Of a stretch of DNA of 64,000 nucleotides, positions 1 to 48,646 are shown piece by piece. The notes beneath the pieces were generated by a model. It did not search any database. It worked only from the letters and a program-made list of their open reading frames with translations, and was not told the origin of the DNA. The position numbers and the translations under genes were made by a program. How positions within the stretch are numbered: position 1 is the first letter of the stretch; every line of letters begins with the position of its first letter. The stretch spans positions 62,001 through 126,000 of the forward strand of contig NZ_BCSV01000003.1 in assembly GCF_001571045.1 (NCBI RefSeq). Direction: 5' to 3'. The DNA comes from Curtobacterium ammoniigenes NBRC 101786. Lineage in GTDB: Bacteria > Actinomycetota > Actinomycetes > Actinomycetales > Microbacteriaceae.

Positions 1-527
1 CCGCGCAGGCCGCCGGGAAGGATGCAGCAGCGGCCGGCGCGGGCGTCGACACGGTCCTCCAGGCCGCGGGCGACGCCTGGTCGGAGGAGGCCGGGGGAAC
101 GTCCGGTGCGCTCTGGGGAGCCGGCATCAGCGCAGCTGGGCGAGCGCTCGGCGACAAGGAGTCGTACGACGGCTCCGACGCGGTTCGTGCCGTCGCCGCA
201 TTCCGCGACGACATCCTGCACCTTGGCAAGGCCGAGATCGGGGACAAGACCCTCGTCGACGCACTCATCCCATACGCCGACGCGCTTGCGACCGCGATGG
301 AGGGCGATTCGTCGACGGAGCGTCTGCTGGACGCCACACAGGCTGCAGCGGACCGGGCCGAGACCGCCGCGCAGGCGACCAGCGACCTCCGACCGAAGAA
401 GGGTCGAGCCCGCCCACTCGCTGAACGCAGCGTCGGCCACCCCGACCCCGGGGCGATCTCCTTCGCCCTTATCGCCGCGACGATTGCGCGGCAGATCCGA
501 ACCGAACGAACGGGAGACAACTCATGA
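1..527 (+). CDS. Dihydroxyacetone-kinase family protein, C-terminal (DhaL/DAK2) part; 5' end outside window
   Basis: This is the tail of an ATP-dependent ketose kinase whose start lies before the window. About 174 residues are visible. They carry the DAK2 signatures GGTSGALWG and, near the end, AERSVGHPDPGA, which form the ATP-binding helical barrel of the DhaL domain. The GTSGALWG form is typical of single-chain DhaK-DhaL kinases, a family that includes dihydroxyacetone and D- or L-erythrulose kinases. The stop codon overlaps the next start (ATGA), so it belongs to the operon that follows. The neighbours suggest a four-carbon ketose as substrate rather than dihydroxyacetone, but that is inference. 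A separate PTS-type DhaKLM system occurs at 46209-48646. Confidence 0.85.
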   Translation, partial: AQAAGKDAAAAGAGVDTVLQAAGDAWSEEAGGTSGALWGAGISAAGRALGDKESYDGSDAVRAVAAFRDDILHLGKAEIGDKTLVDALIPYADALATAMEGDSSTERLLDATQAAADRAETAAQATSDLRPKKGRARPLAERSVGHPDPGAISFALIAATIARQIRTERTGDNS

Positions 528-1492
528 GCCGCAGCGTCGCGATCGTCGGATCGGGATACATGGGCGGGGGCATCGCGCAGGTCCTCGCTCTTGCCGGAGC
601 GGACGTCGCACTCGCCGACGCCTCGCCGCACATCGCGCGTGAGAACTACGAACGGCTCCTGCGCGAAGGCGCGGATTTCGTCCGAGACGGACTGTTCCCG
701 GACGACGCGGTCGAGACGTTGACACGGAATCTCCACGCCGCAGAGAGCATCGAGGAGGCGGTCGCCAACGCCGACTTCATCGAGGAGGCCGTGCCAGAGA
801 TCCCCGACCTCAAGCGCTCGGTGCTCGAGCGCATCAGCGCGGCTGCTCGGCCGGACGCGCTCATCGGCAGCAACACCTCCACGATCTCGATCGGCCAGCT
901 CGCCGTCGCCGTGCAGAACCCGGAGCGGTTCCTCGGCGTCCACTTCTCCAACCCGGCGCCGTTCATTCCCGGCGTCGAGCTCATCCCGCACGCCGGCACC
1001 GCGGCAGCATCGGTCCAGCTCGCCCGGGAGATCGTCGCCGAGACCGGCAAGCAGACCGCCACCGTCAAGGATGTGACCGGCTTCGTGCTGAACCGGCTCC
1101 AGTACGCGCTGTTCCACGAGGCAGCGCAGGTCGTCGAAGACGGCATCGCGTCGGCCGAGGACGTCGACACGCTCGTCCGCACGACCTTCGGCTTCCGGCT
1201 CCCGTTCTTCGGGCCGTTCGCGATTGCCGACATGGCCGGGCTCGACGTGTACGCGTTCTGCTATGGCACCCTGCAGGAGGAGTTCCCGGAGCGGTTCTCG
1301 ACGCCGCCGATCCTGCAGCAGATGGTCGACTCGGGCCGTCTCGGAACGAAGAGCGGAGGCGGGTTCCTCGACGTGCCCGCAGAGCGGATCCCGGAGCTCG
1401 TCGCCTACCGGAACAAGGCGTACGTGCTCATGCAGCGACTTATCGAGGATCTCGGCCCGGCGCCGCTCGGCGAGAACAGGAGCGACGCATGA
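524..1492 (+). CDS. 3-hydroxyacyl-CoA dehydrogenase family oxidoreductase, probably acting on a sugar acid
   Basis: A 322-residue NAD-dependent dehydrogenase. The N-terminal Rossmann fold shows GSGYMGGGIAQ at about residues 9-19. SNTSTISI and HFSNPAPF follow in the middle, and the C-terminal 3HCDH helical domain begins near VTGFVLNRLQ. Length matches single-domain members such as 3-hydroxybutyryl-CoA dehydrogenase and the lambda-crystallin/L-gulonate 3-dehydrogenase group. It overlaps both neighbours by ATGA, in an operon with a ketose kinase and a DUF1537 sugar-acid kinase and no acyl-CoA genes. I therefore infer oxidation of a hydroxyl of a four-carbon acid rather than fatty-acid metabolism. 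The family call is firm; the substrate is not. Confidence 0.85.
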   Translation: MSRSVAIVGSGYMGGGIAQVLALAGADVALADASPHIARENYERLLREGADFVRDGLFPDDAVETLTRNLHAAESIEEAVANADFIEEAVPEIPDLKRSVLERISAAARPDALIGSNTSTISIGQLAVAVQNPERFLGVHFSNPAPFIPGVELIPHAGTAAASVQLAREIVAETGKQTATVKDVTGFVLNRLQYALFHEAAQVVEDGIASAEDVDTLVRTTFGFRLPFFGPFAIADMAGLDVYAFCYGTLQEEFPERFSTPPILQQMVDSGRLGTKSGGGFLDVPAERIPELVAYRNKAYVLMQRLIEDLGPAPLGENRSDA

Positions 1493-2250
1493 CATTCCCC
1501 GACGAACGCACCGTCATCGTGACCGGCGCCGGATCGCCCCGGGGCATCGGGCGTGTCACCGCGCATCGGCTGGCCGCGGCCGGCTGGTCGGTCGGCGTCC
1601 TCGACCTCGACGGCGCCGCGGCAGAAGCCGTGGCCGCTGAGCTGCGCGACACCGGCGCGGCAGCGGTCGGACTCGCCGCAGACGCATCCGACCCTGCTCC
1701 GGTCGACGCCGCGATCACCGAGGTCGAGCGCACACTGCCGCCGATCGTCGGCCTGGTCAACCTCGCGGGGATCAGCTCGCCGAAGCCGTTCCTCGAGGAG
1801 ACCGTCGAAGGCTGGGATCGGATCATGGCCGTCAATCTCCGGAGCGTCTTCGTGATGGCGCAACGGGTCGTCCCCGGCATGATCGAGCGGCGGCTCGGCC
1901 GCATCGTCAGCGCGTCCTCGGTGTCGGCGCAGCGCGGGGGCGGGACCTACTCCAAGTCGGCCTACAGCGCTTCGAAGGCCGGGATCCTCGGGTTGACGCG
2001 TGCGCTCGCCCGTGAGGTCAGCGAGTTCGGCGTCACCGTGAACGCCATTGCGCCGGGCCCGATCGACACCGACATCATGGGAGGGACGCTCACCCCCGAG
2101 CGGAAGGCGGACCTCGCGCGCGACGTGCTCGTCGGACGCGTCGGCACGCAGGACGAGATCGCAGCGCTCATCGCGTTCTTGCTCGGTCCCGATGCCGGCT
2201 TCATCACGGCTGCCACGGTCGATATCAACGGCGGTCTGCAGATCTCGTGA
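1489..2250 (+). CDS. SDR family NAD(P)-dependent oxidoreductase
   Basis: A 253-residue classical short-chain dehydrogenase. The cofactor motif is TGAGSPRGIG near residue 12, an enlarged form of TGxxxGIG with two extra residues. The catalytic YSASK follows SKSA, and VNAIAPGPIDTD is the usual PG motif. The start is fixed by an ATGA overlap with the upstream gene, and its own stop overlaps the DUF1537 gene by GTGA. In this operon a tetritol or tetronate dehydrogenase role is likely, for example a polyol-to-ketose step feeding the upstream kinase. FabG-type 3-oxoacyl reductases share the fold, so specificity cannot be read from sequence alone. Confidence 0.88.
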   Translation: MTFPDERTVIVTGAGSPRGIGRVTAHRLAAAGWSVGVLDLDGAAAEAVAAELRDTGAAAVGLAADASDPAPVDAAITEVERTLPPIVGLVNLAGISSPKPFLEETVEGWDRIMAVNLRSVFVMAQRVVPGMIERRLGRIVSASSVSAQRGGGTYSKSAYSASKAGILGLTRALAREVSEFGVTVNAIAPGPIDTDIMGGTLTPERKADLARDVLVGRVGTQDEIAALIAFLLGPDAGFITAATVDINGGLQIS

Positions 2251-3692
2251 CGCGCCTCCAGGGCTTACTCGACCGGCAGCCTCCGGAGCTCATCGTTCCG
2301 GAGGCGCGGTCGACGATCCGTCATGCGAACGTCGCCTCGGGCCGCCGGTTCGCGGTCCTCGACGATGATCCGACGGGATCGCAGTCGGTGCACGACGTCA
2401 GCCTCGTCACGGCCCTCGATCGGGTCGAGTACGAACGCGCGCTCGCGGAGCCGGGGTCGGTTGCGTTCATCCTCACGAACACGCGGGCGCTGGACGAGCA
2501 CGACGCGGTCGCGCGCACCACGGCGATCGGAGCGGACATCGCCGCGCTCGAGGCGAGTGGTGTCGGCCCGATCAGTGTCGTCAGCCGGAGCGACTCGACG
2601 CTTCGCGGGCACGTCATCGCCGAGGTGCGTGCGCTCGACGCGGTACGTCGACACGCGGACTCCTCCGGCTATGACGGTGTCCTGTTCGTGCCGGCCTTCT
2701 TCGACGCCGGTCGTGTGACGATCGACGATGTCCACTGGGTGGTGTCCGGCGGCGACGCGGTTCCGGCTGCTGACACCGAGTTCGCGAAGGACGCGACCTT
2801 CGGCTATCGCGCTCGGACGCTGCCAGAGTTCCTCGTCGAGCGCTCGGCTGGCTCGCTCGATCCAGCGTCGATCGTCTCGCTGTCGCTCGACGATATCCGG
2901 CGTGGAGGCCCGGATCGCGTCGCCCACGTGCTCTTGTCCGCCCCGAGCGGCAGCATCATCGTGGTGAACGCGGCCGCGCCGTCGGATCTCGAGGTGGTCA
3001 CGCTGGGTCTCCAGCGCGCAGAGCAACAGGGGCATCGCTTCCTGCATCGGTGCGGACCGTCGTTCGTGCGAGCGCTGGCCGGCATCGAGCCGACGGCGCC
3101 GCTGACGATCGAGTCGGTCGCGCCGGCGATCACGCGACCGCGGGCGCACGGGGTCGTCATCGTCGGTTCGCACGTCGGTCTGACGACACGGCAGCTCGCT
3201 GCAGCGCGTGCGCTCGGCGGACTTGCCGACGTCGAGGTCGACGCATCGGCGCTGGCGGACCGTGGCGGCGCGTCGGACGAGATTGATCGAGCGGTCGCGC
3301 GAATCGCGACGCAAATCGCCGACGCGGACGTCGTGGTGGCGACGTCGAGGGCCCTGGTCCGCGGAGATGACCCGACTTCGAGCCTTGCGATCGGGCGCAG
3401 GATCTCGGACGGGTTGGTCGCGATCACACGGGGCGTTGCCCCGCTCGAGCCTGCCTGGGTCGTGGCGAAGGGCGGGATCACGTCACACGATGTGGTGCAG
3501 CGCGGCCTCGACATCAGACGGGGTCGTGTGATCGGTCAGGTCCTGCCGGGGGCCATCTCCGTGCTGCTGCCGGAAGAGGCTCCGACGACCGTGCTCGGCA
3601 TGCCCGTCGTGATCTTCCCGGGGAATGTCGGCGGTGAAACGGCGCTGGCCGACACGCTCGCACTGCTGCGAGGTGCCGGCCAGCGAGGCTAG
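2247..3692 (+). CDS. Four-carbon acid sugar kinase family protein (DUF1537)
   Basis: A 481-residue kinase of the OtnK/LtnK/DtnK family. Family members phosphorylate 2- or 3-oxo-tetronates before decarboxylation to dihydroxyacetone phosphate. The N-terminal domain has DDDPTGSQSVHDV near residue 40 and SRSDSTLRGH near residue 114. The C-terminal nucleotide-binding domain has VAKGGITSHDV and ends with VIFPGNVGGE. The GTG start overlaps the upstream stop (GTGA). No OtnC aldolase or OtnI isomerase is present inside the window, so the rest of the route must lie upstream or elsewhere. Confidence 0.9.
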   Translation: MTRLQGLLDRQPPELIVPEARSTIRHANVASGRRFAVLDDDPTGSQSVHDVSLVTALDRVEYERALAEPGSVAFILTNTRALDEHDAVARTTAIGADIAALEASGVGPISVVSRSDSTLRGHVIAEVRALDAVRRHADSSGYDGVLFVPAFFDAGRVTIDDVHWVVSGGDAVPAADTEFAKDATFGYRARTLPEFLVERSAGSLDPASIVSLSLDDIRRGGPDRVAHVLLSAPSGSIIVVNAAAPSDLEVVTLGLQRAEQQGHRFLHRCGPSFVRALAGIEPTAPLTIESVAPAITRPRAHGVVIVGSHVGLTTRQLAAARALGGLADVEVDASALADRGGASDEIDRAVARIATQIADADVVVATSRALVRGDDPTSSLAIGRRISDGLVAITRGVAPLEPAWVVAKGGITSHDVVQRGLDIRRGRVIGQVLPGAISVLLPEEAPTTVLGMPVVIFPGNVGGETALADTLALLRGAGQRG

Positions 3693-3764: not shown

Positions 3765-4595
3765 TCAGGCCGGGACGTAGTCGAACACGTCGGGGTCCGG
3801 GCCGGTGCGGTGTCCACGGTCGAGGGCCGTGATCGCGCTCATCTCCTCGTCCGACAGCTCGAAATCGAAGATCGCGAAGTTCTCCTCGACGCGGGAACGC
3901 GTCACCGACTTCGGGAACACGATGTCGCCGCGCTGAATGTGCCAGCGGAGCACGACCTGCGCCGGCGTCTTGCCGATCGCGTCGGCCACGCGCGTGATCG
4001 TCGGGTCGTCGAGCACGAGACCCTGGGCGATCGGCGACCAGGCTTCCGTCGCGATGCCGTGCTCGCGGTCGAATGCGCGCAGCTCGTCCTGCACGAGGTA
4101 CGGGTGGATCTCGATCTGGTTCACCGCGGGCACGATGGTGGTCTGCTCGTGCAGCTTGCGGAGGTGGTGCGCCTGGAAGTTGCTGACGCCGATGCTGCGC
4201 GAGAGGCCCTGGTGGTAGAGCTCTTCAAGGCTCTTCCAGGTGGGCACGAAGTCGATGACGGTCGGCAGCGGCCAGTGGATCAGGAACAGGTCCATGTACC
4301 CGCCGAGCCGGTCCGCGGACTTCTTGCCGTTCTCGATTGCCGCGTCGGGGGCGTGGAAACCGTTGTTCAGCTTCGAGGTGACGAAGATCTCCTCGCGCGG
4401 AATCCCGGACTCCGCGATCGCCTCACCGACCTCCTTCTCGTTGCCGTACATCTCGGCCGTGTCGATGTGCCGGTAGCCGATCTCGAGCGCGGTCAGCGTG
4501 GCGGCCTTCGTGTTCTCGGGCTCGATCTGGAACACTCCGAACCCGAGTTGCGGAATGGTCTTGCCGTCGTTGAGCGTGATGGTGGGGACAGTCAT
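3765..4595 (-). CDS. Aldo/keto reductase (2,5-diketo-D-gluconate reductase type)
   Basis: A 276-residue NADPH-dependent TIM-barrel reductase of the AKR5-like group. Visible family features are LGFGVFQIEP near the start, GYRHIDTAEMYGNEKEVG with the catalytic Asp and Tyr, VTSKL with the Lys, FLIHWPLP with the His, and IGVSNFQ. The C-terminal FPKSVTRSRVEEN region binds the cofactor 2'-phosphate. I chose the ATG at 4595; an in-frame TTG 12 bases upstream adds only four residues. It is convergent with the tetronate operon. The physiological carbonyl substrate is unknown. Confidence 0.9.
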   Translation of the reverse strand: MTVPTITLNDGKTIPQLGFGVFQIEPENTKAATLTALEIGYRHIDTAEMYGNEKEVGEAIAESGIPREEIFVTSKLNNGFHAPDAAIENGKKSADRLGGYMDLFLIHWPLPTVIDFVPTWKSLEELYHQGLSRSIGVSNFQAHHLRKLHEQTTIVPAVNQIEIHPYLVQDELRAFDREHGIATEAWSPIAQGLVLDDPTITRVADAIGKTPAQVVLRWHIQRGDIVFPKSVTRSRVEENFAIFDFELSDEEMSAITALDRGHRTGPDPDVFDYVPA

Positions 4596-4631
4596 GCCTC
4601 TAGTCAACCGCGCAGTTGAATGCGCTGCTCG

Positions 4632-43542: not shown

Positions 43543-45054
43543 TCAGTGCACGTCTTCGTCCACCCAGTCGAAGGTCTTCGTGACGGCCTTCTTCCAGAGA
43601 CGCAGCGTGCGGTCGCGCTCGGCGTCGTCGAGCTGCGGCTCCCAACGACGGTCTTCCTGCCAGTTCGAGCGGAGCTCGTCGAGCGACTTCCAGAAGCCGA
43701 CCGCGAGGCCCGCCGCGTAGGCCGCTCCGAGTGCTGTGGTCTCCGCGACGACGGGCCGAACGACCGGCACGTTCAGGATGTCGGCCTGGAACTGCATGAG
43801 CGTGTCGTTGGCGACCATGCCGCCGTCGACCTTGAGTTCCGTCAGCTCCACCCCGGAGTCCGCGTTCACTGCGTCGATGACCTCGCGGGTCTGGAACGCC
43901 GTGGCCTCCAGCGCTGCGCGGGCGATGTGGCCCTTGTTCGCGTAGCGAGTGAGGCCGACGAGCGCGCCACGCGCGTCCGGCCGCCAGTACGGCGCGAAGA
44001 GACCTGAGAACGCGGGGACGAAGTAGACCCCGCCGTTGTCCTCGACGGTCTTCGCGAGCGTCTCGACGTCCGGCGCGCTCTGGATGAGCCCGAGGTTGTC
44101 ACGGAGCCACTGGATCAGCGACCCCGTGACCGCGATCGATCCCTCGAGCGCGTAGTGGGTCTCCTGGTCGCCGAGCTTGTAGCCGACCGTGGTCAGCAGT
44201 CCGTTCTCGGACCGGACGATCTCGGTGCCGGTGTTGAAGATCAGGAAGTTGCCGGTCCCGTAGGTGTTCTTCGACTCGCCGGTGTCGAAGGCCGCCTGAC
44301 CGAACGTCGCGGCCTGCTGGTCGCCGAGGATGCCTGCGATCGGCACCTCCCGAAGCAGGCTCGACGACTCGACCTGGCCGTACACCTCGGACGAGGAAAC
44401 GATCTCCGGGAGCATCGACTTCGGCACGCCGAAGTCCGCGAGGATGTCGTCGCGCCAGCTCAGCGTCTCCAGGTCCATGAAGAGCGTGCGGGAGGCGTTG
44501 GTCACGTCCGTCTTGTGGACACCGCCATCGGTGCCTCCGGTCAGGTTCCACAGCACCCACGTGTCTGTGGTTCCGAACAAGAGGTCGCCGGCTTCGGCCT
44601 TCTCGCGAGCACCTTCGACGTTCTCGAGGATCCACGCGATCTTCGTCCCGGAGAAGTAGGTCGCGAGCGGGAGGCCCACGATCGCCTTGTAGCGGTCGGT
44701 GTCGCCGTTCGCGAGGCGGTCGACGATGGACTGGGTCCTGGTGTCCTGCCACACGATCGCGTTGTAGACCGGCTTGCCGGTCGTCTTGTCCCACACCACC
44801 GCGGTCTCGCGCTGGTTGGTGATGCCGACGGCCGCGACGTCGTGGCGCGTGATGTCGGCGCGCGACAGCGCCTGACCGATCACCTCACGGGTGTTGTCCC
44901 AGATCTCGAGCGGGTTGTGTTCGACCCAGCCCGCACGGGGGAAGATCTGCTCGTGCTCCTTCTGACCCACGGACACGATCGATCCCGAGTGGTCGAAAAC
45001 GATCGCTCGTGTGCTTGTCGTGCCCTGGTCGATGGCAACGATGTAGTCAGCCAT
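43543..45054 (-). CDS. glpK: Glycerol kinase
   Basis: A 503-residue FGGY-family kinase forming glycerol 3-phosphate. Visible: [17 protein letters not shown] at the start, [24 protein letters not shown], the ATP-binding [14 protein letters not shown] and [15 protein letters not shown], and [13 protein letters not shown] with [14 protein letters not shown], the FGGY signature. The His-phosphorylation loop of Firmicute GlpK is not obvious. It lies 93 bases downstream of glpF on the same strand; together they form a glycerol uptake and activation unit. Confidence 0.96.
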
Positions 45055-45147
45055 GTACTGCTCCTTCGGGGATTCGTTTGGCCGGGGTCAGCGGGGTGCG
45101 GGTCCCAGCCGGTGTGCGAGGGTGAGAAAGGTCGATGATGGCGCTGG

Positions 45148-45870
45148 TCAAGCCATCGGGAGGAGGGCGCCGGACACGAGCGCCGCGAGCCCACCACCGA
45201 TGAGCGGGCCGACGATCGGCACCCATGAGTACGACCAGTCGCTCGTTCCCTTTCCGCGGATCGGGAGGACGGCGTGGGCGATACGCGGGCCGAGGTCACG
45301 GGCCGGGTTGATCGCATATCCGGTCGGCCCACCGAGGCTGACGCCGATCGCGATGACGAGGAACGCCACGGGGATCGCACCGAGGGACGCCGGCGTGCGC
45401 CCGTTGGTGAACGCGATGACCACGAAGTTCAGCACGAAGGTGCCGATGATCTCGGTGACGAGGTTCCAGCCGTAGGAGCGGATCGCCGGTCCGGTGGAGA
45501 AGACGCCGAGCTTCGCTGCCGCGTCGGGTTCTTCGTCGAAGTGCTGTTTGTAGGCCAGCCAGACGATGACCGCTCCGACGAACGCGCCGATCACCTCGGC
45601 GAGCATGAGCAGCAGCATCGCTCCGAAGGTCAGCTTGCCGAGCAGGAACTGCGCGAAGGCCACCGAGGGGTTGAGCAGACCGCCGGACTTGTAGGCGACG
45701 GTGACGCCGGCGAAGACCGCGAAGCCCCACCCGATCGTCACCATGAGGAAGCCGGCACCGAATCCCTTGCTCTTCGTCAGCGAGACCGCGGCGACGACGC
45801 CGCCACCGAGAATGATGAGCATTGCGGTACCGACGAGCTCGGACAAGAACTTGATCCCGATGCCGTCCAT
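45148..45870 (-). CDS. glpF: MIP/aquaporin family glycerol facilitator
   Basis: A 240-residue channel with six membrane helices and two half-helices. The first NPA box is GLLNPSVAFAQF, where Ala is replaced by Ser. The second is YAINPARDLGPR, with the Asp after NPAR that marks glyceroporins. A loop with acidic residues lies near 108-118. The ATG at 45870 has AGGAGGT six bases upstream; the open frame beyond it is in the promoter. It is followed by glpK and divergent from dhaK, so glycerol and dihydroxyacetone use share one control region. Confidence 0.92.
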   Translation of the reverse strand: MDGIGIKFLSELVGTAMLIILGGGVVAAVSLTKSKGFGAGFLMVTIGWGFAVFAGVTVAYKSGGLLNPSVAFAQFLLGKLTFGAMLLLMLAEVIGAFVGAVIVWLAYKQHFDEEPDAAAKLGVFSTGPAIRSYGWNLVTEIIGTFVLNFVVIAFTNGRTPASLGAIPVAFLVIAIGVSLGGPTGYAINPARDLGPRIAHAVLPIRGKGTSDWSYSWVPIVGPLIGGGLAALVSGALLPMA

Positions 45871-45996
45871 CGCGAGACCTCCTGTGTCTGAGAGGAGGAC
45901 CGCTTTCACCGGCACTCCTCGTTGAGTGATTTCGCGATGAGCATAGTGCTGGGATTTTGCTGGACGAGCCCAATTTCGAGGAACGTTCTCGTGAAT

Positions 45997-46010
45997 TGCA
46001 CGAACGTGCA
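45997..46010. promoter_or_regulatory. Operator-like palindrome, copy 1
   Basis: TGCACGAACGTGCA: TGCACG and CGTGCA arms around AA, a perfect palindrome apart from the two-base centre. It lies 127 bases before the glpF start. Confidence 0.6.
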
Positions 46011-46095
46011 CACGCGGCAATCTGCTGCGTTCGAATGCGCCGCAAGGGCATGCGGGGGCGGATGATCAAGGCTCGCGAAGCGCGGAGCGCCGTCG

Positions 46096-46109
46096 TGCAC
46101 AAACGTGCA
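46096..46109. promoter_or_regulatory. Operator-like palindrome, copy 2
   Basis: TGCACAAACGTGCA differs from copy 1 by one base (G to A). It lies 99 bases from copy 1, centre to centre, and 100 bases before the dhaK start. Two near-identical sites suggest one regulator, possibly looping DNA. Confidence 0.6.
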
Positions 46110-46208
46110 ACTAGTCCGCACGGGCATGGCGGTACATTGAGCGCAACCAGGCCGCGAGCGCCTCGAGTGGTGCGCCGGCCTCCGGATCACTGTGCGTGGA
46201 GGCATTCG

Positions 46209-47210
46209 ATGAAGAAGCTGATCAACGACCCGCAGCGCGTCGTCGACGACACCGTTCGAGGGTTCGCTCTGGCCCATGCGGACCGCGTCGTGCTCACGGA
46301 GTCTCCGATCCACCTTCGGCGGTCGGACGCTCCGGTTCCGGGCAAAGTCGGGATCGTCAGCGGGGGCGGCAGCGGACACGAGCCGCTCCACGCGGGATTC
46401 ATCGGGCACGGCATGCTCGACGCCGCTGTTCCGGGACCCGTCTTCACCTCGCCGACGCCGGACCCGATCGTGGAGGCGACGAAGGCGGTCGACGCTGGTG
46501 CGGGAGTCCTCCACATCGTGAAGAACTACACCGGCGACGTGCTCAACTTCGAGACCGCGGCGGAGCTCGCCGGGATGGACGGGATCCGGATCGAGTCGGT
46601 CGTTGTCGATGACGACGTCGCCGTTCAGGACTCGCTCTACACGGCGGGTCGTCGGGGTGTCGCTGGCACGGTTGTCGTCGAGAAGTGCGCTGGGGCTGCT
46701 GCCGAGCGCGGAGATGACCTTGACGCCGTCGCCGGCGTTGCTCGCCGGGTCAATGCGGTGACGCGGTCGATGGGTCTCGCGCTCGCTCCGTGCACGGTTC
46801 CGCACGCGGGGGAGCCCTCGTTCACGCTCGCTGAGGACGAGGTCGAGCTCGGTATTGGCATCCATGGCGAGCCGGGACGCGAGAAGATCGCCATGGCGCC
46901 GGCGGACCAGCTCACGGACCGGGTGATCGAGCCGATCCTCGCAGACCTTTCACCGTCCGAGGGTGCACGTGTCCTGCTCTTCGTGAACGGGATGGGGGGC
47001 ACGCCGCTGTCTGAGCTCTACATCGTGTACCGGCGCGCTGCCGAGGTCCTTGCGGAGCGTGGTCTCCAGGTCGCGCGTAGCCTGGTCGGGAACTACGTCA
47101 CCTCGCTGGAGATGCAGGGATTCTCGATCACGCTCTCGGTGTTGGATGACGATCTTCTTGCGCTATGGGATGCGCCGGTCGAGACGCCGGCGCTCCGGTG
47201 GGGTCGGTGA
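46209..47210 (+). CDS. dhaK: PTS-dependent dihydroxyacetone kinase, subunit DhaK
   Basis: A 333-residue substrate-binding subunit. Dihydroxyacetone is held covalently as a hemiaminal on His219 in [11 protein letters not shown], helped by His57 in [27 protein letters not shown] and the terminal [16 protein letters not shown] are conserved. The ATG at 46209 has GTGGAGG nine bases upstream. DhaK works with DhaL, which carries ADP/ATP, and DhaM, which takes phosphate from the PTS. All three are in order here. Confidence 0.95.
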
Positions 47211-47267
47211 GATCACAGCGTTCCGGGACTCGGCAAGGACCGGGATCCGACGAGGAGAGGAAAGCAG

Positions 47268-47915
47268 GTGGGAATGCTTGACACGGCGTGGGCGGTCCGA
47301 TGGGTCCGCGCGACGGCGGCGACTGTGGCAGAACATCGCGCCGAGTTGGTGACGCTCGACCGCGAAATCGGTGACGGCGATCACGGTGAGAATCTCGACC
47401 GAGGGTTCCGCGCCGTTGTCGAGTCAGTGGACGCAGACGAGGATTCCCTCACGACTCCGGCCGACGTGCTGAAGCTCGTCGCGACGAAGCTCATCTCCAC
47501 GGTCGGCGGTGCGTCCGGTCCGCTGTTCGGGACTGCGTACCTGAAGGCGTCGCAGGCTGTCGGCGGCCGGGATGCGCTCGATCCGGAGGCTGTGGTCGCG
47601 TTGCTCGCGGCGGCGCGGGACGGCATTGTCATGCGCGGGAAGGCGCAGCCAGGCGACAAGACAATGGTCGATGCGTGGACACCGGCGGTCGACGCCGCGG
47701 GGGAGGCGTCCGCTGCTGGGGCTTCCGTGGTGGCGGTACTGGAGGCGGCGGCGTCTGCCGCGCAGGCGGGTGCTGAGGCGACCGATCCGCTTGTCGCGCA
47801 TAAGGGGCGGGCGAGCTATCTCGGGGAGCGTGCGATCGGACACCGCGATCCCGGCGCGCAGTCGACCGCGTACATTCTTCGAGCCGCTGCGGATGCTGCA
47901 GCTGATGCAGCGTGA
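47268..47915 (+). CDS. dhaL: Dihydroxyacetone kinase subunit DhaL
   Basis: A 215-residue helical-barrel subunit carrying a tightly bound nucleotide. The magnesium-binding Asp residues are in LDREIGDGDHGENLDRGF (31, 36, 38). STVGGASGPLFG, QPGDKTMVDAW and the end signature RASYLGERAIGHRDPGA follow. The GTG at 47268 is used; an ATG two codons later is equally plausible, with AGGAAAG upstream of both. The gap to dhaK is 57 bases; dhaM overlaps by GTGA. Confidence 0.94.
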   Translation: MGMLDTAWAVRWVRATAATVAEHRAELVTLDREIGDGDHGENLDRGFRAVVESVDADEDSLTTPADVLKLVATKLISTVGGASGPLFGTAYLKASQAVGGRDALDPEAVVALLAAARDGIVMRGKAQPGDKTMVDAWTPAVDAAGEASAAGASVVAVLEAAASAAQAGAEATDPLVAHKGRASYLGERAIGHRDPGAQSTAYILRAAADAAADAA

Positions 47916-48646
47916 GCGTCGCGATCCTCGTCGTGTCGCACAGTGCGGAGCTCGGCGCGGGCGTCGCTGCGCTGGCTGGACAGATGGCACCGGACGTCTC
48001 GATTGCGGTTGCCGCGGGGACGGACGACGGCGGCATCGGGACCTCGTTCGACCGGATCAGTCAGGGGTTCGAGTCCCTTCGCGACAGCGAAGGAGTGGTG
48101 GTGGTGTGCGATCTCGGATCGGCGTACCTCACGGTCGATACCGTCCTTGAGTTTCTCGACGATGAATTCCGCTCCCGTGTCGTGGTTTCGGATGCGCCTC
48201 TGGTTGAGGGTGCTGTCGCCGCGAGCGTTGCGGCGCAGGCCGGTGGAAGCCTGCGGTCCGTGGTCGCGGCAGCGGCGACTGCATGGACGCGGCCGAGCGA
48301 TGCGCCCGATCTCCCGCGCCGGCCAGACGCGACGCCTTCGGGGAACGAGGATTCGCAGGGCTCACGAGCGGCGGACACATCACAGCATGGGCACGCGCGG
48401 GCCTCTGCGGAGCTGGTGAACCCTTCTGGGCTGCACGCGCGGCCGGCTGCAGAGTTCGTGAGGACGGCAGCTCGATTCGAGGCGGTTGTTCGGGTGAACG
48501 GTGTCGATGCCAAGAGTCTCCTGGCGATCATGGCGTTGGCATTACCGCAGGGGAGTTCTGTCGAGATCGAGGCAACCGGTGTCGATGCTCGGGCGGCCGT
48601 TGATGCCTTGACGGATCTCGTGCGATCCGGGTTCGGAGAAGCCTGA
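47912..48646 (+). CDS. dhaM: Dihydroxyacetone kinase phosphotransfer subunit DhaM, EIIA-HPr fusion
   Basis: A 244-residue fusion. Residues 1-125 are the mannose-type EIIA domain with phospho-His10 in LVVSHSAELG. After a 40-residue Asp/Ser/Pro linker, residues 165-244 are an HPr domain with His175 in NPSGLHARPAAEFV and the Ser46-equivalent in DAKSLLAIM. E. coli DhaM adds an enzyme I fragment, which is absent here, so phosphate must come from a separate enzyme I. The GTG overlaps dhaL (GTGA). Confidence 0.93.
   Translation: MSVAILVVSHSAELGAGVAALAGQMAPDVSIAVAAGTDDGGIGTSFDRISQGFESLRDSEGVVVVCDLGSAYLTVDTVLEFLDDEFRSRVVVSDAPLVEGAVAASVAAQAGGSLRSVVAAAATAWTRPSDAPDLPRRPDATPSGNEDSQGSRAADTSQHGHARASAELVNPSGLHARPAAEFVRTAARFEAVVRVNGVDAKSLLAIMALALPQGSSVEIEATGVDARAAVDALTDLVRSGFGEA

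Follow-up and report, generated by a model that had tools for sequence, protein, structure and literature searches.

Which compound is broken down by a chain of overlapping genes at the start of a 64,000-nucleotide stretch of the Curtobacterium ammoniigenes NBRC 101786 genome (13 contigs, 3.04 Mb) is the question raised by this locus; the stretch, C3:62001-126000 on contig C3, is hereafter called the window. The chain encodes a DhaK-DhaL kinase (DhaKL), a dehydrogenase of the 3HCDH fold, an SDR dehydrogenase and a DUF1537-family kinase, and begins upstream of the window with a xylose-isomerase-like TIM barrel. Judged from sequence comparisons, we give a somewhat better than even chance to the reading that this operon breaks down a free sugar acid, likely of five carbons (C5), through oxidation at C3, decarboxylation to erythrulose, phosphorylation and isomerisation. 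A preliminary description of this DNA had recognised an operon of four overlapping genes at positions 1-3692; all four open reading frames, on the + strand, and their overlaps were confirmed as real, but they are only the 3′ part of a five-gene chain, TIM barrel-DhaKL-3HCDH-SDR-DUF1537, which the window start cuts inside DhaKL. At each of the four junctions, including that between the TIM barrel and DhaKL, neighbouring genes overlap by four bases, with ATGA at three junctions and GTGA at one. The arrangement is more than chance, as the TIM barrel, DhaKL and 3HCDH genes adjoin in most relatives examined. The genes of the locus are as follows.

1-527, + strand: DhaK-DhaL kinase (DhaKL), 3′ part in the window; whole gene C3:60767-62527, 586 amino acids
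524-1492, + strand: 3HCDH-fold dehydrogenase (Pfam 3HCDH_N and 3HCDH)
1489-2250, + strand: SDR dehydrogenase (Pfam adh_short_C2)
2247-3692, + strand: DUF1537-family kinase (Pfam SBD_N and NBD_C)
C3:59784-60770, upstream of the window, same strand: xylose-isomerase-like TIM barrel, 328 amino acids (Pfam PF01261)
Upstream of the TIM barrel gene, same strand: GntR/FCD regulator gene (Pfam)
Upstream of the TIM barrel gene, same strand: MFS transporter gene (profile model match)

Relatives of the 3HCDH protein (E ≤ 1e-50) were found at 21 places in 18 of the 394 genomes of a class sample, and 20 of these places (all except G320:C256) were viewed with their flanks. The TIM barrel adjoins 3HCDH in 12 of the 20; the other eight carry a beta-keto-acid cleavage enzyme (BKACE, three places), a HisD-like gene (four) or neither (one), and its absence says little in locus L036, which is only 6.2 kb long. 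Four of the 396 genomes of a phylum sample, this one included, encode the TIM barrel, with 3HCDH adjoining in all four. Altogether 92 loci were compared, 80 of them the best 80 of 499 relatives in a scan of genome contigs. Removal of duplicates (L026 = L052, L028 = L097) left 90 loci, of which 76 have 8 kb or more of flanking sequence to either side of 3HCDH; the 14 shorter ones, among them the window locus, were left out of the counts that follow. Within 8 kb of 3HCDH, the TIM barrel is present in 76/76 loci, DhaKL in 75/76, an RpiB relative in 74/76, a TpiA relative (TpiA2) in 62/76, GntR in 62/76, SDR in 60/76, MFS in 55/76, an LtnD-like gene in 8/76 and DUF1537 in 7/76.

The commonest order, GntR-TIM-DhaKL-RpiB-3HCDH-SDR-MFS-TpiA2, occurs in 37 of the 90 loci, and the core also appears, differently ordered and oriented, in less closely related loci from the class sample (L033, L034, L035 and L041). 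Genes of unannotated loci were called by a codon-usage script, which missed some (e.g., in L066 and L042). A variant without SDR or MFS has TIM-DhaKL-RpiB-3HCDH after ThuA-like and Gfo/Idh-like genes (L054, L060, L075, L083, L088, L096, L099 and L113; Pfam was run on L054 only), with ABC permease genes further upstream in L054, L083 and L096; this variant may use a sugar or glycoside as the source of the acid. Operons almost like those of Arthrobacter are also present in L125 (WNZI01000005.1, a record bearing the name Vibrio cholerae 35D) and L087 (an Acidobacteria metagenome-assembled genome), both of which probably represent assembly contamination.

What the 3HCDH protein acts on was addressed with a midpoint-rooted tree of 60 rows; six other extracted rows, comprising L166, L179 and four that repeat loci in the tree, were omitted. 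The window protein falls in a 22-row clade with support of 99/95. The TIM barrel adjoins 21 of these 22 rows, the remaining one (L104) lying on a contig that ends too early to see one, and Ser119, His140, Glu152, Asn190 and Leu57 are kept in all 22. Rows of the acyl-CoA type, together with L025, form a clade of their own (20 rows, 100/96) that includes PaaH, FadJ, the FadB-type protein of this genome and a 3-hydroxybutyryl-CoA dehydrogenase. At alignment position 55, where a basic residue presumably plays a role in the coenzyme A (CoA)-binding stretch, Lys or Arg is present in 19/19 acyl-CoA-type rows versus 1/22 rows of the window clade, and Arg in two of seven BKACE- or HisD-linked rows. Substantial NCBIfam and PDB scores to 3-hydroxybutyryl-CoA dehydrogenases would suit an ordinary 3-hydroxyacyl-CoA dehydrogenase within a mixed operon. 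We regard this as extremely improbable and rejected that identity, given the separate clade, the basic residue absent from 21 of 22 rows, the steady linkage to the TIM barrel and DhaKL, and the lack of any CoA ligase, thiolase or hydratase recognised among the genes adjoining 3HCDH. Close kinship with L-gulonate 3-dehydrogenase, whose fold the preliminary description had recognised, was not borne out either: carnitine/lambda-crystallin-like proteins (bacterial relatives) make up a third, separate clade (10 rows, 100/100), and the L-gulonate 3-dehydrogenase/lambda-crystallin structures 3ado and 3f3s reach 109-110 bits versus 162 for the best PDB match, 4om8. Membership of that family was thus rejected.

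Six BKACE- or HisD-linked rows join the 22-row clade (28 rows, 97/93) and a seventh such row lies just outside, with the exact sister group left unsure by long branches (4om8, PaaH, FadJ, FadB and others) and the midpoint root. Sister 3HCDH proteins adjoin BKACE in L037, L038 and L040, and HisD-like genes, mostly together with an SDR, in L036, L039, L042 and L043. They are probably other dehydrogenases of free 3-hydroxy acids. A free 3-hydroxy acid is suggested for the window clade as well, because the BKACE partners imply beta-keto acid products in the sister rows, the products being read from the BKACE family name. That the 3HCDH enzyme oxidises a free sugar acid at C3 may fairly be inferred; this idea of the preliminary description survives, since the comparison of loci and clades strengthens it and the protein does not group with 3-hydroxybutyryl-CoA dehydrogenases. 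The predicted structure of the protein was set aside, as its mean pLDDT is 70.1 and, starting at residue 186, long segments score under 50.

The kinase gene, taken whole, encodes Pfam domains Dak1 and Dak2, scores 734 bits on PRK14479 (cut-off 492) and shares an HGEPG motif with the dihydroxyacetone kinase 1un9. We propose that it is an erythrulose kinase. Elsewhere in the window (43543-48646), glycerol kinase and aquaporin-like genes on the - strand adjoin three genes on the + strand, one each for DhaK and DhaL and one that, read by eye as DhaM, would complete a set that is probably the real dihydroxyacetone kinase of this genome. Because another DhaK-DhaL pair thus adjoins glycerol kinase, the operon kinase need not serve dihydroxyacetone. 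The preliminary description took the ketose kinase as a sign that tetritols and tetronates are handled together. This is not supported; DhaKL more plausibly phosphorylates the erythrulose that the pathway itself would yield.

Two isomerases complete the set in most relatives. RpiB and TpiA2 of locus L026 are LacAB_rpiB and TIM proteins by Pfam, and L026 TpiA2 scores 133.7 bits against the L-erythrulose-1-phosphate isomerase 11ef, the named triosephosphate isomerases listed reaching at most 118.4. The window operon lacks both genes; this genome has an RpiB-TpiA2 pair on contig C8 whose members are 76% and 53% identical to the L026 copies.

From the observed gene content, order and conservation, the shared operator-like sites and the phylogeny, we infer the catalytic steps, their order, the chain length and the configuration of a pathway in which a C5 acid would be imported, its C3 hydroxyl oxidised by the 3HCDH enzyme to a 3-oxo acid, and the 3-oxo acid decarboxylated by the TIM barrel to erythrulose, probably L-erythrulose. 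DhaKL would then phosphorylate erythrulose, and the TpiA-like and RpiB-like isomerases (here on contig C8) would convert erythrulose phosphate to D-erythrose 4-phosphate. A C5 rather than a C4 acid is suggested because the isomerases are of the erythrulose type and a C4 acid would give dihydroxyacetone; TpiA2 is the reason for preferring L- over D-erythrulose. Conversion of a C4 acid to dihydroxyacetone is chemically possible, but we rejected it, as it would leave RpiB idle and a DhaK-DhaL pair with a third gene already adjoins glycerol kinase.

The same partners are found with other dehydrogenases on plasmids. At E ≤ 1e-10 the TIM barrel was matched on 93 plasmid records, 84 of them from Sinorhizobium or Ensifer, and the 3HCDH query (E ≤ 1e-40) on three, one of which also carries the TIM barrel. 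A scan for distant relatives of the TIM barrel returned 118 records, of which 93 matched the greater part of its length, and among the 60 plasmid matches listed, those under 60% identity were weak, partial matches of 25-35%. In the five alphaproteobacterial plasmid loci retrieved (L126, L127, L128, L194 and L195), a PdxA-family gene replaces 3HCDH near the TIM barrel and DhaKL; TctCBA appears in the annotation of L127, L194 and L195 and, in part, in that of L126, L128 being unannotated. PdxA oxidises C3 of its known substrate, so this replacement agrees with C3 oxidation. On a Streptomyces plasmid, TIM-DhaKL-RpiB is accompanied by an LtnD-like gene and a YgbN-like permease; the product of the former reaches 217 bits with the L-threonate dehydrogenase model, whose cut-off is 350. 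An LtnD-like gene in the place of 3HCDH does not agree with C3 oxidation, because LtnD makes a 2-oxo acid, as stated in an excerpt of PMC12540250. On the Paracoccus plasmid of L194 (17048-20365), a SAF-domain protein and genes annotated as 3-oxo-tetronate kinase and aldolase follow TIM-DhaKL-PdxA-TctCBA, which makes it a place where both acid routes adjoin.

The putative decarboxylase role of the TIM barrel is the weakest link of the proposed pathway. At E ≤ 0.1 the protein matches a single known structure, 5tnv, which is that of a Mycobacterium smegmatis xylose-isomerase-like TIM barrel determined with magnesium (327 bits, 46% identity, Z 37.3). OtnI was rejected as its identity, as there is no OtnI-type NCBIfam match and BLASTP against E. 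coli OtnI aligned 25 residues at E 0.002. Beyond 5tnv, most of its fold neighbours are epimerases, isomerases and proteins of the IolE type, with Art22, IolE and ketose 3-epimerases at Z of about 24-26. The TIM barrel might accordingly prepare the acid or the ketose by epimerising or isomerising it, with the 3-oxo acid decarboxylating spontaneously or within the dehydrogenase. PdxA-type enzymes oxidise and decarboxylate, and their coexistence with the TIM barrel in rhizobial loci would also fit. We hold this to be possible but doubtful, since the TIM barrel persists when the dehydrogenase family changes, which by argument would tie it to an intermediate common to all of them.

A branched acid of the apiose family, such as isoapionate, would leave the TIM barrel as a decarboxylase: 3HCDH would form 3-oxo-isoapionate and an OiaC-type TIM barrel would turn it into L-erythrulose. 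In apionate breakdown, a decarboxylase (OiaC) is said to feed L-erythrulose. Functions related to plant cell-wall sugars adjoin some loci, namely GH51 in L031 and, upstream in L054, L083 and L096, genes for an ABC permease and Gfo/Idh proteins. The published apiose routes (Carter et al., 2018), which run via 3-oxo-isoapionate according to a mention in PMC6302742, also favour such an acid. A search of this genome for PGDH_C, a marker of apionate oxidoisomerase, gave no match and was uninformative, as the controls were unmatched too. Apionate oxidoisomerase, the known entry enzyme, belongs to a protein family other than 3HCDH, and on balance we consider an apiose-type acid unlikely.

The preliminary description had instead passed the 3-oxo product to the DUF1537 kinase. 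On this account, 3HCDH would turn erythronate or threonate into 3-oxo-tetronate, DUF1537 would phosphorylate it and a decarboxylase would yield dihydroxyacetone phosphate. The DUF1537 gene does belong to the same overlapping chain, excerpts of PMC12540250 describe the family as known for 3-oxo-tetronate kinases, and two Aldolase_II genes are present elsewhere in this genome, one of them 26% identical to E. coli OtnC. As to position, however, the kinase is accessory to the core: it was rejected as a core member because it is near 3HCDH in only the few loci counted above, against the near-constant TIM barrel and DhaKL. Among the full 90 loci it lies near 3HCDH in 10, with an LtnD-like gene also near in nine of these and the window as the exception. 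For the window protein, which is 54-55% identical to the L051 and L059 copies, BLASTP at 1e-3 gave no hit on E. coli OtnK, the operon has no OtnC, and the TIM barrel, DhaKL and RpiB would be left without a task. On contig C4 (L004:8223-12136), a regulator, a PdxA-family gene, a second DUF1537 gene and a likely transporter stand together, and this PdxA-DUF1537 pair probably handles D-threonate. A tetronate route through the operon is consequently highly unlikely in our judgement.

A dehydrogenase acting directly at C3 had also been expected to make OtnI dispensable. In agreement with this, no tblastn match to E. coli LtnD, OtnC or OtnI was obtained in C3:47001-66500, including 15 kb upstream of window position 1 (E ≤ 1e-10 and E ≤ 1e-5); three of the four strong NAD_binding_2 matches in this genome were compared with LtnD, C6:72239 being left out. 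An OtnI-free pathway is not new as such, because a natural bypass via 2-OtnK and 2-OtnC is already in print, as described in part of PMC12540250. In the pathway through erythrulose, we read the DUF1537 kinase and the SDR as side branches; the SDR, whose best PDB match is a FabG-type reductase (163 bits), is absent from the mycobacterium-like loci L033 and L034.

Regulation and transport were also compared among loci. Two exact copies of the sequence TAGGAAAYAGGA are present in 19.5 kb, one before the MFS gene and one before the TIM-barrel gene (expected 0.00). Upstream of the TIM barrel it is exact in 34 of 85 distinct regions and present with at most two mismatches in 67 of 85; in a shuffled control (100 shuffles per region, duplicate loci removed) the corresponding counts were 0/8500 and 130/8500. 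The palindrome TCCTATAGGA is also located upstream of the TIM barrel in many loci, and the TAGGAAAYAGGA/TCCTATAGGA site is taken as a putative GntR operator. The best model for the MFS transporter is a D-galactonate transporter, at 273 bits and under the cut-off of 395. Transporter families differ among loci (MFS of D-galactonate type, GntP and TctCBA), and all three are read as transporters of the acid type. An aldo/keto reductase gene at window 3765-4607 (- strand) faces the end of the operon; its best model is the 2,5-didehydrogluconate reductase DkgA (323 bits, cut-off 425).

Several observations weigh against the proposed route. For TpiA2, the putative triosephosphate isomerase 3s6d outscores 11ef (142.8 bits). 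RpiB proteins reach 146-157 bits on the model of D-erythrulose-4-phosphate isomerase (DerI), below its cut-off of 240; the RpiB of this genome scores 146.3 there and passes the actinobacterial ribose-5-phosphate isomerase model RPI_actino (204.8 versus 168.2). TpiA2 is not near 3HCDH in 14 of 76 loci. The RpiB-TpiA2 pair of this genome lies outside the operon, and no operator-like site precedes it: three matches at up to three mismatches were found in 19.9 kb near the pair, with 5.66 expected, and none at its promoter. Among the 50 fold neighbours of the TIM barrel listed, none is a decarboxylase by title. Moreover, the loci are mostly from Arthrobacter and close kin, so that their counts show constancy rather than independent events.

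Candidate substrates are L-xylonate, L-lyxonate and L-arabinonate. L-Xylonate and L-lyxonate are C5 acids from ascorbate breakdown, and an origin in ascorbate would fit the occasional LtnD-DUF1537 neighbours because L-threonate is also an ascorbate product. An excerpt of PMC6191929 lists L-erythrulose and C5 aldonic acids as breakdown products of ascorbate in mammals, and one of PMC5398285 includes L-erythrulose in the products of diketogulonate. In a literature search of open-licence papers, we found none on this operon, none on these genes when searching for pentonate 3-dehydrogenases and apionate enzymes, and no mention of 5tnv. We suggest, tentatively and at less than even probability, that the operon represents an undescribed C5 aldonate pathway. 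It would combine C3 oxidation of a free acid with direct decarboxylation to erythrulose, give the 5tnv-type TIM-barrel family a new function and allow unrelated entry dehydrogenases (3HCDH, PdxA and perhaps LtnD-like) to be swapped. An operon conserved in soil- and plant-associated actinobacteria, whose dehydrogenase has fatty-acid enzymes as its closest family labels and whose TIM barrel is related to a solved structure of unassigned function (5tnv), would thereby gain a specific function that can be tested cheaply. If true, it would open a new entry of sugar acids to erythrose 4-phosphate, correct misleading labels of "3-hydroxyacyl-CoA dehydrogenase" and provide an enzyme set for erythrulose production.

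Compared with known systems, the operon resembles the tetronate pathway LtnD-OtnI-OtnK-OtnC (E. coli ygbJKLM) in bringing together a sugar acid, a dehydrogenase, a PF01261 protein and a DUF1537 kinase, but it has neither LtnD nor OtnC, its TIM barrel is not OtnI and E. coli OtnK is no close relative of its DUF1537 kinase. Apiose pathways would have in common with it the decarboxylation of a 3-oxo C5 acid to L-erythrulose and differ in the entry enzyme, which would be 3HCDH here. With L-gulonate 3-dehydrogenase/lambda-crystallin, the dehydrogenase shares the fold, and with that group's bacterial relatives also the Ser, His, Glu and Asn positions, whereas its clade is another and its match to their structures is lower; the proposed pathway would be to pentonates what the animal gulonate-to-xylulose route is to gulonate. 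The title of 5tnv, the closest solved relative of the TIM barrel, names no function. In the LerK-LerI-DerI module, LerK is an L-erythrulose 1-kinase and LerI and DerI then lead to D-erythrose 4-phosphate, as described in a passage of PMC10733421; an excerpt of PMC12780249 places the module in tetritol routes of M. smegmatis. In the operon family, too, a DhaK-type kinase occurs with relatives of TpiA and RpiB, but the two isomerases are on another contig in this genome, and erythrulose is proposed to come from an acid via 3HCDH and the TIM barrel instead of from a tetritol. The erythrulose module is thus the closest known system, and the novelty would lie in starting from an acid.

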